Origin: Chlorella sorokiniana
Taxonomy: Eukaryota > Chlorophyta > Trebouxiophyceae > Chlorellales > Chlorellaceae
Reading direction: 5' to 3'
NCBI GenBank assembly: GCA_025917655.1
Contig: CP084611.1
Coordinates: 1,674,001-1,738,000 of the forward strand
Length of the DNA: 64,000 nt
Shown here: piece after piece, positions 5,484 to 54,545 of the stretch
How the letters are laid out: each line of letters starts with the position of its first letter
How positions within the stretch are numbered: position 1 is the stretch's first letter
Position numbers and translations under genes: made by a program
Notes under the pieces: model-generated
What the model was told of the DNA's origin: nothing
What the model saw: the letters and a program-made list of their open reading frames with translations, nothing else
Databases searched by the model: none

Positions 5484-6860
5484 TCAAGTGGTGCTGTCCT
5501 TGAGGCCGCTGGGCATCATTGAGCGCCACGGCCGTGGGCTCTGGGAAAATTTGGCGACAAATGTTCTGGTGAGCATTTAGCATGTATGTTTGGGAGTATC
5601 TGGCTTTGTGAATCCACCATCGGTTTGTGTACGTCCGTGAGAGCCAAATGGCGAGCCGATCATTCACTGCAGCAGCTCCACACTCACTGTTCACAACATG
5701 TCCAGCAGCGCAGCATTGCAACGCAGAAAGCTACTTGCAGCTTACTCACCTTCCTAACATCTTCTTGGCCCAATGCCATAAATGGGAGCTCGCCCACTAG
5801 TGGGCGAGCTCCTTGTCGGGGTGGCAGTACTGCCACCCCAACAAGCAGCCCTGCATGCAAGTCACGCTTATCAGCGGCAAGCTGTTGTCAGCTCAGTCAT
5901 ACCAAGCCTCGTTCATCCCAAGCATACCTATGTATGCATACAAGATGAATCGCTTGATGGACTTCTTCAGGTCTGTGTCATTCAGTGACACCAAGTCCTC
6001 TGCACCACCCACTTCATAGCTTTACTGAATAACCACACAAGCACAGAACCAGTGCTAGGTTCAGGACTTACCAGCAAAGATTCCATCTCCATTGGTTGTG
6101 AGATGTAAGAACAGAGGCTTCGGCAGCATCCATTCGCCCAACCAGGCCATCATCTCATCATTAGCCAGGATGCCCAGCACCAATCCCAATACTGCCTTGA
6201 AAAGCAGCACCCAGCTGGCACTGATGCACAGTGGCAATGTTATCAGAACTGACCCACTTGAGAACAGCGCCATTTTCATCATTGAAATGCACAGATCCTT
6301 GAAGTGCGGCCTGGGCAAAAAACATGACAACCCTGCAAACAAAAAGGAGTTCTGGTATCAGCAGTTGCGTAAACGAGTGCCAAAGCACACATGGTGTTGC
6401 ACTGGCAGATTCAAACAAAGTTTGGGAGTTTGGCAGCACTGCGCAAGTGCTGACCGGCAAGTCCACAGTAAAGGCAGTTTGCCACAAGGAAAAGTGGGTC
6501 AGTCCTGCTGGCTCGATGCGTTGCCCACGTTGCAATAAAGACGCCAGTCACCAGAACCACCAGCAGCTGCTGCGCAGGAGCGGTGCGGGCTGTATACCAG
6601 GCCGTGAAGAGAAATGGCGCCATGACGGAACCCATGGCCACCACAACAACAGGGAAATGAGTACCCTGGTCCTGGTTGGCCATGATGATGCCGAAAGCCT
6701 CGCCACACAGGAAGAAAATGATCAAGAAGAGGGTTCTAGGATGGCCAGTAAGCAGGTGGCGGAGTGAGAGTGATGCGGAGGCAGCTCCAGCTCCAGCGCT
6801 GGATGCACTTGGTGGCTCGATGGGCGATCCTGGCAGTGGTGGCCCCACTGCTGCCAGCAC
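5484..6860 (-). CDS. Multi-pass membrane protein of unknown family, five exons
   Basis: Exons 6860-6455, 6332-6072, 5999-5928, 5850-5750 and 5540-5484 join in phase to give about 298 residues. Donors include perfect GTAAGT and GTGAGT sites. After a Pro/Ala/Ser-rich N-terminus there are about six or seven hydrophobic segments, for example TLFLIIFFLCGEAFGIIMA, ATHRASRTDPLFLVANCLY, WVLLFKAVLGLVLGI and RFILYAYIGLLVGVAVLPP. A short polar loop (NDTDLKKSIKR) precedes the last span. No family is recognised. Exon 4 contains two adjacent perfect DNA palindromes, listed separately. The start at 6860 is the first ATG of the open frame; a further upstream exon cannot be excluded. Confidence 0.68.
5785..5845. 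repeat. Two abutting perfect palindromes inside a coding exon
   Basis: Bases 5785-5812 form a 28-base perfect palindrome centred on ACTAGT, with arms GGAGCTCGCCC/GGGCGAGCTCC. Bases 5818-5839 form a 22-base perfect palindrome centred on AGTACT, and with its flanks (5812-5845) it pairs over 34 bases with one mismatch. Both lie in exon 4 of the membrane protein gene. Confidence 0.9.
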
Positions 6861-28579: not shown

Positions 28580-30551
28580 ATGGCGGAGGAGCAGGATCCA
28601 CGCGAGAAGGCGCTGGAAGATTACAAGCGCAAGCTTTTACAGCACAAGGAGGTGGACAGCAAAGTGAGGGCGCTCCGAGAGGACGTGAAGACTGTCAAGA
28701 CGGAGTATGACAAGACGGAGGATGACCTGAAGGCGCTCCAGAGCGTCGGCCAGATCATCGGCGAGGTGCTGCGGCAGTTGGACGAGGAGCGCTGTAAGTT
28801 TCATTGATTGCACCATGTGAGGGCTGTATCAAGCAATAGAGGACCCCATAACTTTAGTGGTGGCAGCCCCGCCCCCTGGCTCTGACTGGCGGCGCCGCTC
28901 GCTGCACAATGTTGTCGTTAAGCCCAACAGTTTTCAGCAGCAAACTGCTTGCCTCGTCCCGCTGCAGTCATTGTCAAGTCTAGCAGCGGGCCGCGCTATG
29001 TTGTGGGCTGTCGGAGCAAAGTGGACAAGGAGAAGCTGACTCCCAACACGCGGGTGGCGCTGGATGTGACGACGCTTACCATCATGCGCATCCTGCCCCG
29101 CGAGGTGGACCCGGTGGTGTTCAACATGACTCAGGAGGATCCCGGCAAGGTGGACTACTCGTCCATCGGTGGCCTGTCAGAGCAAATTCGGTGCGGGCAG
29201 GGGATATGGCCGGGAGGCGGAGGGGGCTCGTGCATGGGGGCCCCTGTCGCAGGTTGCATGCACGGATTAGATGGTGCATGCCCTCTCTTGCTGTCGCATG
29301 TGTACGGCAGCAAAAATCAACACTGATGAAGAACTCGTTGAACACTGCGTGGAGCAGGGAGCTGCGGGAGGCTGTGGAGCTGCCGCTGGTGAACCCGGAG
29401 CTGTTTGCGCGGGTGGGCATCAAGCCGCCCACTGGCGTGCTGCTCTACGGGCCGCCTGGCACCGGCAAGACGCTGCTGGCCAAGGCCATCGCCTCCAATA
29501 TAGACGCCAACTTCCTGAAAGTGGTGGCTTCGGGGGTGGTGGACAAGTACATTGGGGAGTCGGCGCGGGTCATTCGCGAGATGTTTGGGTGAGAATGAGG
29601 GCGGGAACACAGAGGTGTGATGGACAGGGAGCCGCTGGCAGCTGGGGACGTGCATAGCCAGGAGAAAACGAAGAGCCAGCTGGGCCGGCTGCTCGAAAGA
29701 CATGGCGACCTTCCTGCGTTCAAGTCCAGGATGCATCCACCACCCGACCGCCTGCAGCTACGCGCGAGAGCACCAGCCCTGCATCATTTTCATGGATGAA
29801 ATTGATGCTATCGGCGGCAAGCGATTCAGCGAGGGTACCAGTGCAGACCGTGAGGTGCGGTGGTTGTCCTTGCTCGCAGACGCTGCCCCCCTTCCCTGGC
29901 CTCCTCGCCACTGAGCTGCTGTGCTGCGTGCGTGCAATGCTCAGCGTCTTGGTTGGCGCACCGCTTGCTGCCTACAGGTTCAGCGCACGTTGATGGAGCT
30001 GCTGTCGCAGCTGGACGGGTTTGAAAAGCTGGGCAAGGTGAAGCTGGTGGCGGCCACCAACCGGCCAGATGTGCTGGACCCCGCGCTCATGCGCCCCGGG
30101 CGCCTGGACCGTAAGATTGAGATCCCGCTGCCCAACGAGCAGGTGTGACCACGCTTGGCTGGCTGCTGTCCCAAATCTCAAGACAGCCAACCCTGCTGCA
30201 GTCCTACGTGCAGCCTTGTGTTTTTGGCCTGTCCCACCCGTCCACATGCCTATCTCCCGCGCCACCCCACCCTGCCCCCCAGGCCCGCATGGAGATCCTT
30301 AAGATCCACGCCTCCAAGATCACCAAGCACGGCGACATCGACTACGAGGCGGTGGTCAAGCTGGCCGACAATTTCAACGGCGCTGACCTGCGCAACATTT
30401 GCACAGAGGCGGGCATGTTTGCCATCCGAGACGAGCGCGACTATGTGGTGCAGGAGGACTTCATGAAGGCGGTGCGCAAGCTGGGGAGGCAAAGAAGCTG
30501 GAGGGACACTTGGCCTACTCGGCAGAGTTTGGAGATGCGGGCAAGTCATGA
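28580..30551 (+). CDS. RPT4: 26S proteasome AAA-ATPase RPT4 (PSMC6)
   Basis: One of six ATPases of the 19S base that unfold substrates. Six exons: 28580-28793, 28968-29190, 29358-29588, 29758-29854, 29978-30142, 30283-30551. An N-terminal coiled coil ([20 protein letters not shown]) leads to the OB domain ([35 protein letters not shown]). The AAA domain has Walker A GPPGTGKT, pore loop VDKYIGES, Walker [13 protein letters not shown] and second region of homology [20 protein letters not shown]. The RPT4-type tail follows. The LPREVDP and DYKRKLL motifs separate it from other RPTs. One G is missing in the run 30483-30486, just before the tail [17 protein letters not shown]; restoring the family frame gives a stop at 30551. 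A TGTAA lies at 30645-30649. Confidence 0.95.
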
Positions 30552-30706
30552 TGACACGTGGCGGCAGGGCCCCATGGCTGCAGCGTGCATCCCCCTTCCA
30601 TCCTGCCTACGCTTTGCCTCATGCCATTGCCGCTGCGCTTGTTCTGTAACTGCAATCATATGAAACAGGTCCAGCCTCTACATTATCGAAATGTGGCATG
30701 CTTTAA

Positions 30707-43049: not shown

Positions 43050-45353
<2,304 letters not shown>

Positions 45354-45776
45354 TGCGTTCGTGGGTTGGATGGCGGAGACAGGCTATCGCTGGGCTTGTC
45401 TGGACTCGCGCCGTCGGCTATTTGGCGCAGAGACAACGAGGCGATGGCAGTTGACCTACTTCAGACGGCTTCGGGTTGCTGTAGGCAGCGTTGGGGGCGA
45501 TCGGGGCGTCTCTGTGCTTGAGGCAAGCTGTGCGTGTCGTTCAGGGCTCCGAGGTTCTGATGAAGAGTGAGGGTTCTTGCTTGTGCGCACAGGGGCAGTG
45601 GCTTGGTGTGCAGCGTCTGGCGTCCTCGCCTCGCTGGCAGGTGATTGATGATGCCGCACCGTCACCCCCATTTGCTATTCTTGAAAGCCAATTACCCTTG
45701 CGCTGCGTGTGTGAGCCCCAGGAAGGCGCAATAGAGGCACTCTTCCAGCCTCGGGTTTGCTGCCTGCTCCCACCCA
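45354..45776. promoter_or_regulatory. Divergent promoter region of DHH1 and TatC
   Basis: About 420 bases between the two start codons. No canonical element stands out. Short open frames here have no motif. Confidence 0.4.
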
Positions 45777-47415
45777 ATGCACACTGCTTGCCCGCTTCTT
45801 CAGCAGCGCTTGGCGTCTGCTGCAGGAGCCAGCTCTTCAGGACAATGCTCGGGCCCTGCACCACGAGCGGCCCCAAGGCTAGCAGCACAGCGGCGTAGCA
45901 GCAGCATACTGCGGCCAGGAAGCAGCTTTTCGCGATTGCAGGCCGCAAATGATGATCGCACTGGCCCCCTTGTGCCCCTAGGTGGGTTGAGCACGGCTGT
46001 TGGCGGGCATGGAAACGTCAGGGCTGAGCCTGCTTTGGGGGGGGCTGAAGTTGAGCAAACCCAGAAGATATCCTTCCACAATGTCATAATGCACTTTGGA
46101 GACAGTATACAGTTTGGCAGGCTGCTGCACCATCATCCGCTCCTCCTGTCCGTCTACAGGCGACGGCGAGGTGCGGTCGTCCGTGGAACAGTGGCTCAAC
46201 CCCCCAAGAACGAGCTGCCCGACGACTTTGAGATGCCGATCTGGGATCACCTGGACGAGTTGCGGGAGCGCGTGCTGGTGGGCGCCCTGGCGGCGGCCGC
46301 AGCTGTGCTCACCTGCTTCATCTTTTCTAAGGACCTCGTGGTGTTCCTGGAGGCGCCCGTGGCGGCGCAGGTGCAACACGCATGCTGTGGTTTCCAGCAG
46401 GGCATGGCTAACCCCTTGCCTGCATGCGACTGCCTTGATGTCCTCGCTCTTTCCTGGGAGCAATGCGACGGGCACAAGGCAGGGTGGGTGTGCGCGGCAC
46501 GCTGACAGTGCGTCTGTTGCCGCAACCCGTTGCGCAGGGCGTGCGCTTCCTGCAGCTGTCCCCTGGCGAGTTCTTCTTCACCACGCTCAAGGTGGGCGGC
46601 TACGCGGGCATCCTCATATCGGTGCCCACCATTCTGTATGAAATCGCTGCCTACGTGGTGCCCGGCCTCACCAAGAGCGAGCGCCAGTTCCTGGCCCCTG
46701 TCATCCTCGGCTCCTCAGTGCTCTTCTACCTGGGGTGAGCACAGCGGCTGGCAGGGGACGCGTGTCGCACCCCCGCATCCAATATGCAAGCTGTGCAGGC
46801 AGGGCTGCGTGCACTGCTGGCCGTGTTCATGCATGCCAGCAGTCGGTACCACCACCACCCCTCCTTCCCCTCCCCTTGGCGACTCCAGCCTCGTGTTTTC
46901 CTACGAGGTGCTGACACCCGCCGCTCTCACCTTCTTCGTGTCATACGCTGACGGCGCGGTGGAGTCCCTGTGGTCCATCGACCAGTACTTTGAGTTTGTG
47001 CTGGTGCTCATGCTCAGCACGGGGCTGGCCTTTCAGGTGGGCCGCGCAGCGGCGAGCGTGGCACTCTGTGCGGGCCTGCGTACATGCCATCCATCGTGCA
47101 GTCCTCCTTCAAATGAGCGGGCTGTCAGCGGGACCGCCGAGGCACGTTGCTCAGTGTTCCCGCTCTGCGCTGCGCCTGCAGGTCCCCGTGATCCAGATCA
47201 TGCTGGGCCAGCTGGGGCTGGTCACCTCTGAGATGATGTTCAGCCAGTGGCGCTTCGTGGTGGTGGGGGCCACGGTGGCTGCTGCAGTGCTGACGCCCTC
47301 CACAGACCCCTTCACTCAAACCCTCCTGGCCGTCCCGCTGGTCGGCCTCTACATGGGTGGCGCCTCCTGCGTGCGCTTGCTGGAGGAGCGGCGCCGTGCC
47401 TCCCAGTCGGCATGA
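45777..47415 (+). CDS. TATC: Plastid Sec-independent protein translocase TatC
   Basis: Multispan receptor of the thylakoid twin-arginine (delta-pH) pathway that binds RR signal peptides. Exons 45777-45981, 46160-46370, 46538-46734, 46889-47036 and 47182-47415. The first exon is a typical transit peptide (Ser/Ala/Arg-rich, e.g. [19 protein letters not shown]). The mature part reads [20 protein letters not shown] (signal-binding N-terminal motif), [80 protein letters not shown] and [20 protein letters not shown]. Six membrane helices fit the family. One C is missing in the run 46200-46205 (conserved sense [15 protein letters not shown]). A TGTAA lies at 47435-47439. Confidence 0.95.
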
Positions 47416-47434
47416 TCTGGAAAGTACATGTGCG

Positions 47435-47447
47435 TGTAAAGTTTACA
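47435..47447. terminator. Shared bidirectional poly(A) motif of TatC and SelK
   Basis: The stretch TGTAAAGTTTACA holds TGTAA on the plus strand (47435-47439) 20 bases after the TatC stop. It holds the reverse complement of TGTAA (47443-47447) for the minus-strand selenoprotein K transcript. TGTAA is the usual poly(A) signal of green algae. Confidence 0.55.
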
Positions 47448-47578
47448 ACCTGACGAGGCATCAGACCTGAGGTCAGTCAACAAGGGAAGTTGAATACATG
47501 CAGGGATTTGCTGACTAAGTGTACAGGAGAAGTGGAACAAAGCGCGCTTGTGCTCTGCTGCATATTGTTGAGCAACCG

Positions 47579-47645
47579 CCAGCGGGAGTTCGGCTGCTCC
47601 GTGTGCCGATGAGGGCATTTGGGCGGAGCAACGTCATGAGGCTGG
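47579..47645 (-). promoter_or_regulatory. SECIS element (form II) of selenoprotein K
   Basis: On the minus strand: helix I CCAGC (47645-47641) pairs with GCTGG (47583-47579). After an internal loop comes ATGA (47637-47634), then helix GTTGCTCCG (47632-47624) pairing fully with CGGAGCAGC (47601-47593, one G-U). The 3' strand continues CGAA (47592-47589), giving the tandem G.A quartet. The apical loop holds unpaired AA (47620-47619), 13 bases after ATGA, and a mini-stem TGCC/GGCA, which defines form II. It lies about 265 bases after the TGA codon, inside the expected 3' UTR. Confidence 0.85.
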
Positions 47646-47901
47646 GGTGGTGCACGTCGTGGAGCTGCATCGCTGCAACAACGTGCTTGCAACATGCCGC
47701 TGAAAACACGCCACTCAGACGATCGGCTGGTGTAAGCATCAAGGCGCGCAGAGAGAAGCTGTGGCATTGTCAGCATGGGTGGCGGCTGGAGGCCAGGGTG
47801 TGGGCATGGCGGGCCAGGGCACAGTACCCTACTGCTGTGCGACCCACTGCTGTAGATGGCCCGACTGAGAGCCTGGCCTCCAGGGCTCGTGCTAACAATG
47901 C

Positions 47902-48469
47902 CTACCGGGCTCAGCCGCCCCCACCACAGGCCGCCGCTGCATGACATATGCACCAGACAGCGGCGATTAATTGCCGCCGCGAATCATTGACAGCATACAG
48001 AACATTTGAGGTGATGACTGCTACAACAAACTCACCTCCGCTCGCATCTCGCAAGTCGCTTAGGCCGGTGATGCGCGGGCCGCGAGGGCGGTTTTGTCCG
48101 CCGCCGCCTCCACCGCCTCCGCCCCGCCTGCGGCTTGCATTGTCTTGGGCTGCTTCTGGGTTTAGTATTGTCCGACAGAAAAGCACAAACCAGGCGATCA
48201 GCGAGGAGATGAAGCCTACAAGCGCTCTCAGGCCCAAAGCCGGCGGCTGGCCGTGCACCAGTGAGCCTGTGAGCGGTAAGGTGGGCGAGAACTGTAAGCT
48301 GCCGCGCATTCGTGGCAAACGATGATACTCCGACATTTGCATTTTGAAAATGGCTGTGCGCACAGAGATGCAGGGTTACTCTAGAGGTCACGGTGAAATA
48401 GGCCTCGTGAAACAGTCTTCTCTACGCTGTGCTGCCTTCAAACCCACCGTCTCTACTGATGTAAGCCAT
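47902..48469 (-). CDS. SELENOK: Selenoprotein K homologue with in-frame UGA (Sec)
   Basis: Small ER membrane protein of 95 residues, part of ER-associated degradation and palmitoylation complexes in animals. Exons 48469-48448, 48266-48036 and 47936-47902 join in phase with GT-AG introns. The protein starts MAYISRDGSLVHGQP (family: MVYISNGQVL), has one membrane span (ALVGFISSLIAWFVLFCRTI) and a Gly/Arg-rich cytosolic part (RRRGGGGGGGGGQNRPRGPR). It ends SDLRDASGAAACGGGG-U-A-R-stop (family: GG-U-G-R). The TGA is 47913-47911 and the real stop TAG is 47904-47902, two codons later. A form-II SECIS lies downstream. Intron 2 is 99 bases with no stop, so unspliced RNA reads through to the same TGA. 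A gene finder that treats TGA as a stop would lose only the last three residues and so hide the Sec. Confidence 0.87.
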
Positions 48470-49092
48470 GGTCCCCGCGACTAAGGCTCGCTCTCCCGAG
48501 AAGACGTGCCTGAAGGGCTCACCAAACAGGTTCTTCTCCTTCTCCCTCCCAAGGCACCTTTTTATAACCGCAAACGCACACAAAGTCACCCTTGCGCGCT
48601 GGGTTGGCCCCGCTAAGCAAGCAAAAGGCAGTGTGCAGTACAAGCGCACACTCGTCATGCGCCGCCTGGTGCCGTCTGCAGTGCCAAGCTGGTGCAGAAG
48701 GTGCCAGGTGAGCAGGTGGTGTATGAGTTCTGTTATCTTAAACGGTCCGGCGGCTGCTATCAGAATTGCAAGGTGTAGGCCTTTCGAGGGGTTGTGATGG
48801 CGGGTAGGCGGGCAGGCAGGGGGACGGAAATCCAACGCCGCTGCCATCAAAACACTCGGCAGACACGCCAAGCAGGAAGACACCTGCGATGCACATGCCA
48901 CCGTGCAGTGGGTTTCCCTTTCCGGCCTAGGCGGTGCGTGTGATGTCCAGCGGCACATCTTTCTTCGCACAGGGCTGCACATGGGCCCACCGTGCTACGC
49001 CTCCTGTGATGCCGGCTTTCAGCAACTCGACTGCACATAATCTACTGTACATGTATATTGGAGCTTCTGCATCGGAACTGACTGCACAGCGA
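48470..49092. other. Upstream region of selenoprotein K
   Basis: No coding sequence is supported. The long minus-strand frame continuing upstream from MAYISRDG has no motif and is taken as 5' untranslated or promoter sequence. Confidence 0.45.
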
Positions 49093-52000
49093 TCACAGCA
49101 GCGTGCGCCCATCGTCCACTCCCACCGTCAGCAGGCGTGCGGGCATCCGTCCTGGCGTGCGGCCGCGGTTCTGCAGGCGGAGGTCTGGGTCGCCAACCAG
49201 GACCAGGCCGCGCCCACCTGGCGGCGGCTCCAACGGGCTGGCCCCAAGCATGCTCAAGCCGCCCGCCGCCCCGTCCCGGGCCAGCGTGCCCAGGCCTATG
49301 CCCATGTCGGCGGTGACGTGGCGCGCGATGCGCTGCGCCAGGCTGGCACCGTCGCCGGCACCCGGCCCCTCGAAGCACGCCTGCAAGCCGTTGTGCTCCA
49401 GCAGTGGCAGTGCAGAGGCAAGCTCCTGCGTGATGGCGGCCTGCAGCTCGCGGCTGGCGGCGTCTGCGGCCGGCTGCTCAGCAGCTTCGTCCTGCAGGTC
49501 GATCGGAAGGGAGGCAGCGGCGGCGATGCTGGGCGCCCAGTCAGGCATCAGCTTTTCGCTGCGTTCCAGCGCCATGGTGCAACGCGCTGCAGGGATACCA
49601 GCGGCAGCGGCAGCTTCATCGCACCTCTTCCACCTGCACCACAGGCAGGCTGAGCCCGGGCCCTGGCCACTGCGTGAGCGACCTGCCCAGCGCGCGAGCC
49701 AGCGCGCCCCCGCCAGGCCGCTGAATTCTGCCGCTTTCTTGCCGTTCAGGGCCAGCCAGATGGCGGACGCAGCCAGGGCACGGCTGTAGGCCAGAACAGC
49801 GTCGTCGCCGCCAGCCTTGGGCAGCGCCTGTTTTCCGTAGGCTCCATCGCGCCGGGTGCCCCGCTCGCACTCGCGCACTTCACCTGTCGTCTGTTGCCCC
49901 TGTTGCTGCTGCTGCTTGCGGGCGCAACGGGCGCGTCTGTCCCACCACCCATCCGCGCTGCCGCCTGCTCGCTGTTGTACCGCTGCATCTCACCCACCAG
50001 CTCCGCCAGCGAGCAGCGCGCGATGGCGGGCTCAGGCACACCCAGCAGGCGTGGCCCCAGCGGGGTGGCCATCATCAGCCGATCGGTGACATCGCCCGCC
50101 CAGCCCAGAGCCTGGGCCGCCAGGCTGACCAGGCCGCAGCAGAACAGGGAGGCCAAGCGGGGCAGCCCGCTGCAAGGGGCGAGCAGGGGGAGGAGGGCAG
50201 TTGCGGTGAGGGGTTCCAGGGGGTGACGAGTGGGTGAAGGGGCTTGGAGACATGTGGCTGCAGTGGCGTTGGAGTGGGTAGGATGCCGAGCATGCTGAGC
50301 ATGCAGCGCACTGAGCACTGCCCCGGTACAGCCCCACCTGGCTGGCTGGCCCAGGCCGCCGGGCCGGGCCCTGGCGTCGCCGCCCCCATTTCGCGGATGA
50401 AGGCGGCCACCTCGGGGGCTCCTCCGCGCCGCCCTCCTCATCATCCTGTGCGTGGGGATGCGTGGGGGGGGGGGGGGGGAGGGCAATGAGGCAGGCTACG
50501 GGCAGCACCACACAGCTCCTCTCTCCTGCACAGCACACCTGCGCCGAGCTGACGACCTGCACGCCGCCGCCGCCGCCCGAAATCATGGCGGCAGCCGCCT
50601 CCAGGCGTCTTCGCATGAGTGCGCGCTGCAGGCGGCGGTAGGCCAGCATGGCGCCGCCCGTCACCTCACGCAGGTCGCGCCACAGAGCCTCAACCTGGGG
50701 TTGGGGAGGGTGAGGCGCATAAGCCAACACACTCTGAGCAGTGCCTGGCGCCTGCAGTGAGTGTTCGCATGTGCTGATCCCTGCGCTTGCGATGGCACTG
50801 CTTCCTGGCAGGGCATGGGGCAATCAATAGGGGGAGGGGGCCCTCATTTCCAGCAGCGCACCTGGCTGGCGCAGAGAAACGTTGGGGTGAATTCCAACGC
50901 GGTGCCATCAGGGGCCATCTGCCGCACGTACAGGCCCTGAGAGCGGGGAGGCGGGTGGGCACCGGCTGTCGGCGTGCGTGCCAGGGCAGGTGAGAGGGGC
51001 ATGGCATGATCCGCACAATGCCGGCTGGCATGTGGGCACCGATGCTGCTTCGAATCCAAATGCCGCGGAACAAGTTGGGAGACTGTTCAGCAAAACAGGA
51101 CATGCATGCAGCCCACCTGAAGCACATACACCTGCAGGCCGCCTGGGGTCGTGGCGGCGGTCAGCTGCTGCGGGCGGCTGCCAGCTGCTGTGCGCGGCCC
51201 CTCGCCATGTAGCAGGCCCTGCAGCACCACAAAGTGCTGGGGCAGGGCGGCCAGCAGGCGCAGCGCTACACGCACCGGCACCCATGCCAGCTGCGGCGGC
51301 GCCCCGCTGCCAGCAGCCGGCGGGTTGGCAGGTCTTGGAGCGTGTACCGTCGCTCTGAGCCTGGCTGCTTCCCTGCCGTCGCTGGTCTCGCCACCGCGGA
51401 TGCCTGAGCTTCGCCGTCCGGCTGTGCGGAGGCCCCGCTGGTGCGGGCATGGTGCGTGAACTCGTTTGCCCGGCTTTCCACCGTCTTGGACAGGTGGTGG
51501 CCGTCAAGCACCACGCTCGCCAGCCGCCTCAGTGCAGCAAAGGGGTTCAGGCCCCCGCCACGCGCTGGGGCGCCGCGGCTGCCGTCCACGGGCACGATCT
51601 GCACCGCGAGTGTATGAGCGAGCATAGGTGGGTGGATAGGGTGGGGTGGGGGAGGCAGGCGGCGCAGGGGCGGCAGCACACATGCGTTTCGATGTTTCAT
51701 GCCACGAAGGCCGCACCTTGATGCTTGCCCGCGCCAGCTGCTCTGCCACGCCTCGCTCCGTGAGAATGAGCTTCCGTCCTGCCAGCTGCTGCGCCTGGCA
51801 AACATTGAACGCACTGATGGGGTCTGCAGGCAAGAGGCAGCGTGCAGCAGGTAGGGTTAGGGCGCAGAGGGTGGGTGGATGGGTGGGGGAGGCCATTTGT
51901 ATCTGTCGACTGGCGAAGCAGGTTCCCACCTGTGATGCGGGAAGCGGTGCGCCATACGTCCCTGTCAGCCTCTGCCAGTGTGTCGGAGGGCAGCACGCCC

Positions 52001-52394: not shown

Positions 52395-52974
52395 GCTAGG
52401 ATCGTGCAGGGAGAACCCTCGACACCATGAACATTTGGTGTTCAGGGCTATTCATTGCTTTTTTGGGTTGCAATTTGTATCGTCTGTTCTTGAGTGAAGG
52501 ATGAAGTGGCCGGCATAGTACTGTATTTGGCCTTGAAGGGAAAACAACGTGGCTGGCGGCACTAGAAAACAGGACAAAAAAGGACCGGCGCTTCAGAAAT
52601 ACACAGTAACAGTTCACTCCGCCCTTTGCACTTCAGACATTACGGCGCAATGTTCCACTGGTTTGCTGGCGGGCACGGCCTTGTGCTGCACTGAAATAAT
52701 TTGGTCCGGCGGTTGATTTCCCATTTACAAGCTAGGCAAGCCTCTACAGCAAGCTTCAGGGCTCGTGCTGCCACTGGCCACCGCCACGCTGCCGCCGCCA
52801 CTGACGTCGCGAAGTGTGCGAGGGCGATGTGCAGGCCTCAACCTGGCTCTGAATTCTGCCTCCCTGCTGGCTCAACCTGGGCACATCATTGCTTTAAACC
52901 TTCAGATCCACTCCACGTGTGCATTTACCTCCCGTCCGGGCAGCGCAGGAGGACGCGGAAGGCAAAGGGCGAAC
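52395..52974. promoter_or_regulatory. Divergent promoter region upstream of TRM7
   Basis: About 580 bases between divergent genes, lower in GC at 52440-52720. No coding sequence or clear element is recognised. Confidence 0.4.
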
Positions 52975-54545
52975 ATGGTGCGCACTTCTAAGGACAAGCG
53001 CGACATCTATTACCGGAAGGCCAAGGAGGAGGGGTGGCGCGCGCGCAGCGCCTTCAAGTTACTGCAAATCGATGACGCCTTTGGCATACTGTCGGGTGGG
53101 GCTTGGTTGCGTGGGAGCGCTGCTGCCTGCCTGCCTGCCTGCGTGGCCTGCTGCAAGCGCCGCAGCGTACATGGCCCTCTGCCTAGCAGGCGTGCGGCAT
53201 GTGGTGGATCTGTGTGCCGCGCCGGGCAGCTGGAGCCAGGTGCTGAGCCGGCGGCTGTACCTGCCAGCCGTGGCGGCGGGCGCAGCGGCAGTGAGCTGCC
53301 CAAGATTGTGGCGGTGGACCTGCAGCCCATGGCGCCCATCGAGGGCGTGGTGCAGCTGCAGGCAAGCACGGCGGCCGTGCGCTGCGCATGGCAGCTTTGA
53401 GGCTGGCTGGCTGCTTGTTAGGAGTGTCTGGGGCCAGGATTGTTGCGAGGCCTGTCGGTCCTTTCTGCATGATGAAACCACCCTCGGGCCCTGGGGCGCA
53501 GGGCGACATCACGTCGGAGGCCACCGCCCGCGCCGTCATCTCCCACTTTGACGGGCACCATGCCGATTTGGTGGTGTGCGACGGGGCGCCGGATGGTAGG
53601 CGTCGTACCGGGCGGAGAGCCATGCTGCACACAGCATACATGCAGCCTGGCCAGCCCGTACCGACTGCTGTTGTGGGCACCTCCGCCGCGAGTCGGCTGG
53701 CACACCACAGGCCTGCCCCGGTTGGGCCCCTCTCTCCCTCCCCCTGCAGTCACCGGCCTGCACGACATGGACGAGTTTGTGCAAGGGCAGCTGATACTGG
53801 CGGCGCTCGCCATTGTCAGCTCAGTGCTGGCCCCCGGCGGCACCTTTGTTGCCAAGGTCTTCCGCGGCCGCGACGTCACGCTCCTCTACTCCCAGCTCAA
53901 GATTTTCTTCCCGGATGTGACAGGTGATCAGGGCAGGGCGGCAGCTGTCACGCGCGCGGTTCACATGAAGGTGCCGGGTCCTGCAGCAGCTGTGTCGCGT
54001 GTGAGGTGCTTGCGACCCCGTGCTGCCCGCAGTGGCCAAGCCCAAGAGTAGCCGCAACTCAAGCATCGAGGCGTTTGTGGTCTGCCGAAACTACTTGCCG
54101 CCCCCAGGCTTCGAGCCCACGCAGCTGCAGGCGCTGCTTCGTGGGGGTGGGAGGCGCATGGCCCAGGCACGCAGCATAGGTGTGCAGGTGGAGTGTGGCC
54201 CCCCCACTTGTAAGCTGTCCCAGGGCCCGTGCGAAGAGTAGGCCTGCACCATGCATGCTCAGCGGCCAGCCCTGATTGTCCCGCCACCCTTGCAGCCCCC
54301 TCATGAGGCAGCTGGTGCCTTTCTTGGCGTGCGGCGACTTGGATGGGTGGGATGCGGATGCGTCATACGACTTGCCTGCAGAGGGCTATGTCGCCCTGCC
54401 GCCCGTGCAGCCACCCACAGCCCCTGCGTACAGGCGGGCTGTGGAGGTTCTCAAGGCAATACCAGCCGCAGACCCACAAACAGCCACTGCAGCAGCGGCG
54501 ATCATCGCCGCAGTGACAGCAGCCGCAGACCAGCAAGATAAATAA
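52975..54545 (+). CDS. TRM7: tRNA 2'-O-ribose methyltransferase TRM7/FTSJ1
   Basis: SAM-dependent enzyme that methylates the anticodon loop (positions 32 and 34) of certain tRNAs in the cytoplasm. Exons 52975-53094, 53190-53361, 53502-53595, 53750-53923, 54033-about 54146 and 54297-54545. It starts [20 protein letters not shown] with [11 protein letters not shown] (catalytic Lys), then [19 protein letters not shown] (SAM site), [40 protein letters not shown] (catalytic Asp), [20 protein letters not shown] (catalytic Lys) and [16 protein letters not shown] (Glu). The K-D-K-E tetrad is complete. One intron (53362-53501) has a GC donor. The junction after LQALLRG (near 54145) needs one more G to stay in frame. 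The C-terminus is Ala-rich. Confidence 0.94.

Follow-up and report, generated by a model that had tools for sequence, protein, structure and literature searches.

A predicted selenoprotein K gene with an in-frame UGA two codons ahead of its stop in the green alga Chlorella sorokiniana

Introduction

When a short reading frame meets a TGA and, two codons later, a second stop, does the TGA end the protein or specify selenocysteine (Sec)? This question is raised by a minus-strand locus in a 64,000-nucleotide stretch of Chlorella sorokiniana DNA (hereafter "the window", meaning the whole stretch that was analysed; G+C content 63.4%), where an original prediction had placed a selenoprotein K (SelK) gene composed of three short exons with a SECIS downstream.

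Sec-containing SelK is already known from green algae, and the present gene adds a member to the family without being a surprise. SelK is listed as a selenoprotein in both Ostreococcus tauri and O. lucimarinus (PMC2375036), and blastP pointed to a possible SELENOK in Picochlorum, a trebouxiophyte (PMC11092101). In a survey of 137 algae SELENOK occurred almost exclusively in its Sec form, yet it belonged to the selenoproteins with the narrowest distribution (PMC7539508). In one study, all sequenced genomes but one from the core chlorophyte classes have the full Sec machinery (PMC6627142).

Results

A three-exon frame with an in-frame TGA

We reconstructed the coding frame on the minus strand, where three exons are separated by two GT..AG introns:

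48448..48469, minus strand: SelK exon 1, 22 nt; ATG, six more codons (together MAYISRD) and the opening base of a Gly codon
48267..48447, minus strand: intron 1, 181 nt; GTGGGT...CTCACAG
48036..48266, minus strand: SelK exon 2, 231 nt; membrane span and Gly/Arg-rich tail
47937..48035, minus strand: intron 2, 99 nt; GTGAGT...ATGCAG; length divisible by three, no in-frame stop
47902..47936, minus strand: SelK exon 3, 35 nt; completes an Ala codon, then AACGGGG-U-AR-stop
47911..47913, minus strand: TGA, seen in the sequence; presumed Sec codon
47902..47904, minus strand: TAG, the true stop codon, seen in the sequence

With the TGA read as Sec, the spliced frame would yield MAYISRDGSLVHGQPPALGLRALVGFISSLIAWFVLFCRTILNPEAAQDNASRRRGGGGGGGGGQNRPRGPRITGLSDLRDASGAAACGGGG-U-AR (in the DNA, MAYISRDGSLVHGQPPALGLRALVGFISSLIAWFVLFCRTILNPEAAQDNASRRRGGGGGGGGGQNRPRGPRITGLSDLRDASGAAACGGGG-TGA-AR-TAG), a protein of 95 residues and ~9.6 kDa. 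The frame closes with the residues ACGGGG, followed in the DNA by TGA, GCC-CGG (Ala-Arg) and the stop TAG. The exons and coordinates of the original prediction are exact and are borne out by this reconstruction, as is the ending it had claimed, GGGG-TGA-GCC-CGG-TAG, since in the spliced frame the TGA is followed by Ala-Arg and then by TAG. The splice donors are ACG/GTGGGT and GAG/GTGAGT (exon/intron), with CAG at both acceptors. Intron 2 is open and divisible by three, so the TGA stays in frame whether this intron is spliced or retained. Of random 99-nt stretches drawn from the window, 55% lack a stop in a given frame, so an open intron 2 says little for or against splicing.

Hydrophobicity peaks over 19 residues from residue 20 onward (mean hydropathy 2.09), and the tail ahead of the Sec codon holds 16 Gly and 8 Arg in 54 residues; the claimed single membrane span and Gly/Arg-rich tail are thus confirmed. 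The start M-x-Y-I-S occurs once in the window, counting both strands; 60 shuffled windows averaged 0.07. The arrangement Gly-Gly-TGA-(1 to 4 codons)-stop is found three times, against a mean of 1.1 per shuffled window, and is not rare on its own.

The product matches the SelK family

Searched against the Pfam family SelK_SelG (PF10961), for which the curated cut-off is 23.3 bits, the predicted product scored 43.2 bits (E 6.1e-11), with residues 2-92 aligned to profile positions 1-85/86. The match covers nearly the whole profile and upholds the SelK identity proposed originally. Broken down by part, exon 2 alone gave 31.3 bits, exons 1 and 2 together 41.0 bits, and everything before the TGA 42.9 bits. 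Because exon 1 adds ~10 bits and exon 3 ~2 bits to the score, the splice model is supported; the same gain of ~10 bits speaks for the reality of the tiny first exon, with its seven full codons. Exon 3 carries the match on to profile position 85/86, and the last three residues (U-A-R) barely move the score (42.9 bits without them, 43.2 bits with them). Searches of PDB, NCBIfam and PHROGs gave nothing credible (best E 0.15, no match, and best E 0.12, respectively). A search for relatives gave 45 pattern matches in viral and 591 in prokaryote contigs, of which tblastn confirmed none.

A SECIS candidate between the stop codon and a probable polyadenylation signal

Three features flank the coding frame on its own strand:

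48561..48566, minus strand: TATAAA, 97 nt upstream of the SelK ATG
47573..47648, minus strand: SECIS candidate, lower helix included; the core (AUGA...AAA...GA) spans 47637-47589
47443..47447, minus strand: TGTAA, probable polyadenylation signal, 141 nt past the SECIS core

The pentamer TGTAA is the polyadenylation signal of green algae. It occurs 17 times on the SelK strand of the window (12.9 expected), and its presence alone is weak evidence because it is not rare on this strand.

The SECIS candidate sits on the coding strand between the SelK stop and the TGTAA, and its core starts 274 nt past the TGA and 264 nt past the TAG. In its predicted fold, a lower helix leads to an internal loop in which AUGA stands opposite GA; beyond this come a helix of nine pairs, the apical bulge CCCAAA and a mini-stem of four pairs. 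Cut at the ends of the element, which were chosen to fit it, the stretch 47648-47573 has a stability z score of -3.29, and 1 of 200 shuffles was as stable. Published SECIS rules ask for NTGA-(10-13)-AA-(15-39)-GA and for energies below -12.6 and -3.7 kcal/mol (PMC2375036); the candidate conforms to them, its gaps being 13 and 27 and its energies -22.1 kcal/mol when 10-nt flanks are included and -19.0 kcal/mol for the upper stem. The base before the quartet is A here, in contrast to the G of almost all Ostreococcus SECIS elements (PMC2375036).

How often such hairpins arise by chance depends strongly on the rules applied. A strict scan of both strands, devised after the hairpin had been seen, returned two matches in the window at seven or more pairs (1.2 expected); at nine pairs the candidate was the only match, with 0.125 expected per shuffled window. 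Using the published spacings and a structure filter, we counted 10 separate sites across the window, whereas 30 shuffled windows averaged 16.5. When the same scan also demanded the AA and an upper-stem energy no higher than -15 kcal/mol, the candidate was the only site left, against 1.9 per shuffled window. From the shuffle scan we calculated the chance of a SECIS-like hairpin on the right strand of a 460-nt UTR as ~0.06 under the loose rules and ~0.007 with the AA and the upper-stem limit of -15 kcal/mol. Some SECIS-like hairpin in this G+C-rich window is therefore unremarkable under loose rules, and the weight of the candidate comes from the fit of place, strand and gene together.

With wider spacings (8-15) and nine or more pairs, the scan found 4 distinct places in the window. 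Those at 50910 and 39054 on the minus strand also have the AA and energies of -19 kcal/mol or better; they span 50910-50848, with a spacing of 14, and 39054-38992, with a spacing of 15, where the published range is 10-13. The minus-strand hairpins at 50910 and 26234 have 10 helix pairs each, compared with nine in the candidate.

Rfam was searched with the whole window and with the stretches 47000-48600 and 47560-47665, and no SECIS was found, either at the gathering score or at E <= 10. Weak matches to Prion_pknot, UPD-PK2 and HOTTIP_3 fell under the gathering score and were taken as chance. For the downstream SECIS of the original prediction there is thus a candidate on the coding strand that agrees with the published sequence and energy rules. 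The Rfam covariance models, whose recognition would lend support but does not define a SECIS, do not recognise it, and the covariance-model check of the 3' UTR that the prediction had proposed ended with no SECIS match.

A nested hairpin beside the UGA

A second structure begins where the frame ends:

47763..47902, minus strand: long nested hairpin with arms 47890-47902/47763-47775 and 47872-47883/47786-47797; possible recoding-stimulating structure

This hairpin (47902-47763) is built from two inverted repeats of 13 nt (92%) and 12 nt (100%); its first base is the last base of the true stop TAG, which leaves an 8-nt spacer from the UGA. Cut at its arms, with ends chosen after the fact, it reached z -3.8, and 0 of 500 shuffles were as stable. 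Among eight 140-nt folds started 1 to 15 nt past the UGA in steps of two, the one beginning at the ninth base was the most stable. In a grid scan with windows of equal size, z <= -3.8 was reached by 10 of 2130 and -3 by 36. A 176-nt stretch around the hairpin has nothing unusual about its fold (z -1.24, with 31 of 200 shuffled versions as stable). Perfect 12-nt inverted pairs with spacers no longer than 150 number six in the window, whereas 40 shuffles gave 1.85 on average and never more than 6. Inverted repeats are thus frequent in this DNA, which weakens the significance of the hairpin.

We also considered the hairpin as a mobile element and, as far as the window goes, rejected this: the closest other copy of its arm in the window (6233-6245) has 2 mismatches, and allowing up to 3 mismatches yields 22 matches, in line with the 21 expected by chance. 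The strangest fold of the grid scan lies elsewhere, at 5701-5920, where both strands give z scores of -6.7 to -6.9 around a perfect 12-nt inverted repeat (5785/5801).

A convergent TatC gene and other neighbours

The neighbour on the 3' side lies outside the selenoprotein gene:

45735..47415, plus strand: TatC (Sec-independent protein translocase) gene, convergent; several exon-like frames

Pfam TatC was matched in three frames, over profile positions 1-42, 109-158 and 156-208. The TatC stop is at 47413-47415, with a TGTAA of its own at 47435-47439 on the plus strand, and from this arrangement the TatC and SelK transcripts would end tail-to-tail. The nearly palindromic 13-base TGTAAAGTTTACA at 47435-47447 holds both TGTAA signals, on opposite strands. 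Further away in the window are exon-like frames matching Helicase_C (43352-44047, minus strand; 95.7 bits), AAA_lid_3 (30121-30660, plus strand; 50.8 bits) and FtsJ (52717-53397, plus strand; 23.7 bits, just below the cut-off of 24.1).

Other readings of the locus

The exon structure itself could be different. Translation might start at an ATG inside intron 1 and run through intron 2 to the TGA as a single frame (143 aa), or intron 2 might be retained, and both of these alternative frames are open. However, the one-exon form scores 29.9 bits against SelK_SelG and lacks the start typical of the family, and the form with intron 2 retained scores 39.8 bits over profile positions 1-74, compared with 43.2 bits over 1-85 for the three-exon frame. 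Consensus-like ends on both introns also speak against it. We regard a different gene model as unlikely; it would be compatible with Sec decoding, and its odds overlap those of the other readings. Among the gene models tried, the three-exon frame is supported as the best. That the locus is a pseudogene or a mis-assembled fragment appears extremely improbable, given a complete frame, intact splice sites and, in order, the TATAAA at -97, the SECIS candidate and the TGTAA.

Another alternative keeps the SelK family but dispenses with Sec: the TGA would be a real stop, the protein would end in -CGGGG, and the SECIS-like hairpin would be a chance product or a relic. Several observations are in keeping with it. 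U-A-R hardly alters the Pfam score, SECIS-like hairpins are frequent in the window under loose rules, and Rfam does not see the candidate; the survey of algae reports small selenoproteomes (0-5) for Sphaeropleales, Streptophyta and Trebouxiophyceae (PMC7539508). Against this stand a candidate that obeys the SECIS rules on the correct strand and in the correct place, a second stop that closes the frame two codons past the TGA, and the almost exclusive occurrence of algal SELENOK in its Sec-containing form (PMC7539508). On balance we judge a Sec-free SelK to be very unlikely. A SelK gene with a Sec-coding TGA is supported because the family match, the gene structure and a rightly placed SECIS candidate come together at one locus.

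Discussion

We conclude that this locus is very probably (at a rough probability of 0.92) a nuclear gene for selenoprotein K in which the UGA at 47913-47911 is read as Sec via the downstream SECIS. The original prediction had gone further and considered Sec decoding of UGA a "must" for this alga. Our analysis supports a Sec-coding TGA, but so strong a word exceeds the evidence, as Rfam gave no SECIS and ARAGORN found no tRNA genes in the window.

By analogy with established selenoprotein biology, SBP2 would bind the SECIS and EFSec would deliver Sec-tRNA, so that the UGA at 47913-47911 would be decoded as Sec and translation would stop two codons on. The product would then be an ER membrane protein whose tail and Sec face the cytosol, and it may assist in the degradation of misfolded ER proteins, both as reported for SELENOK. 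A role of SELENOK in the removal of misfolded ER proteins by ER-associated degradation has been described (PMC10215577).

The predicted gene resembles SELENOK (PF10961) in its start, its one membrane span, its Gly/Arg-rich tail, the GG before a near-terminal Sec codon and the SECIS candidate downstream. In animal SelK, Gly directly follows Sec (GG-U-G-R); unlike that pattern, Ala follows Sec here. A run of nine glycines in the tail, a first coding exon of 22 nt and an in-frame intron 2 further distinguish the present gene. The Ostreococcus SelK proteins and the possible Picochlorum SELENOK belong to the same family and to the green lineage, a likeness drawn from their published descriptions.

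Two features might provide controls in addition to the SECIS. One is the nested hairpin. Redefinition elements 3' of a UGA-Sec codon (SREs) have been shown for SELENON and found also for SELENOT (PMC8704476). As in the SELENON-type element (PMC8704476), a stable hairpin is predicted shortly 3' of the UGA-Sec codon, here after an 8-nt spacer; unlike that element, it sits in the 3' UTR, and its first base is the final base of the TAG. The other is the end that would be exposed if the UGA were read as a stop, for instance when Sec is short, since such a product would end in -GGGG. In human truncated SelK, the Gly-Gly end is a degron for CRL2-KLHDC2 (PMC12035522). The UGA-terminated algal product would likewise end in Gly-Gly (GGGG, by sequence), although a glycine-rich tail such as this one may end in GG for other reasons. 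Among the papers listed in a literature search on C-degrons, KLHDC2, Arabidopsis and algae, none combined C-degron and KLHDC2. It is a speculative and rather unlikely proposal, made by analogy, that both controls operate here, with an SRE-like hairpin aiding Sec decoding and a -GGGG C-degron marking the failed product.

The gene also illustrates how annotation misses loci of this kind: its first coding exon has 22 nt, one of its introns is in frame, and two residues follow the Sec codon. RefSeq annotation of vertebrates is reported to fail most on selenoproteins with a near-terminal Sec codon (PMC12822975). For one of the least widespread algal selenoproteins, the locus adds a complete candidate gene model with a SECIS candidate. 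Should the -GGGG end function as a degron, an alga would offer a way to test how old selenoprotein quality control is; and if both additional controls were to prove true, an aid from codon context and the disposal of failed SelK would be older than the divergence of the green lineage from animals.
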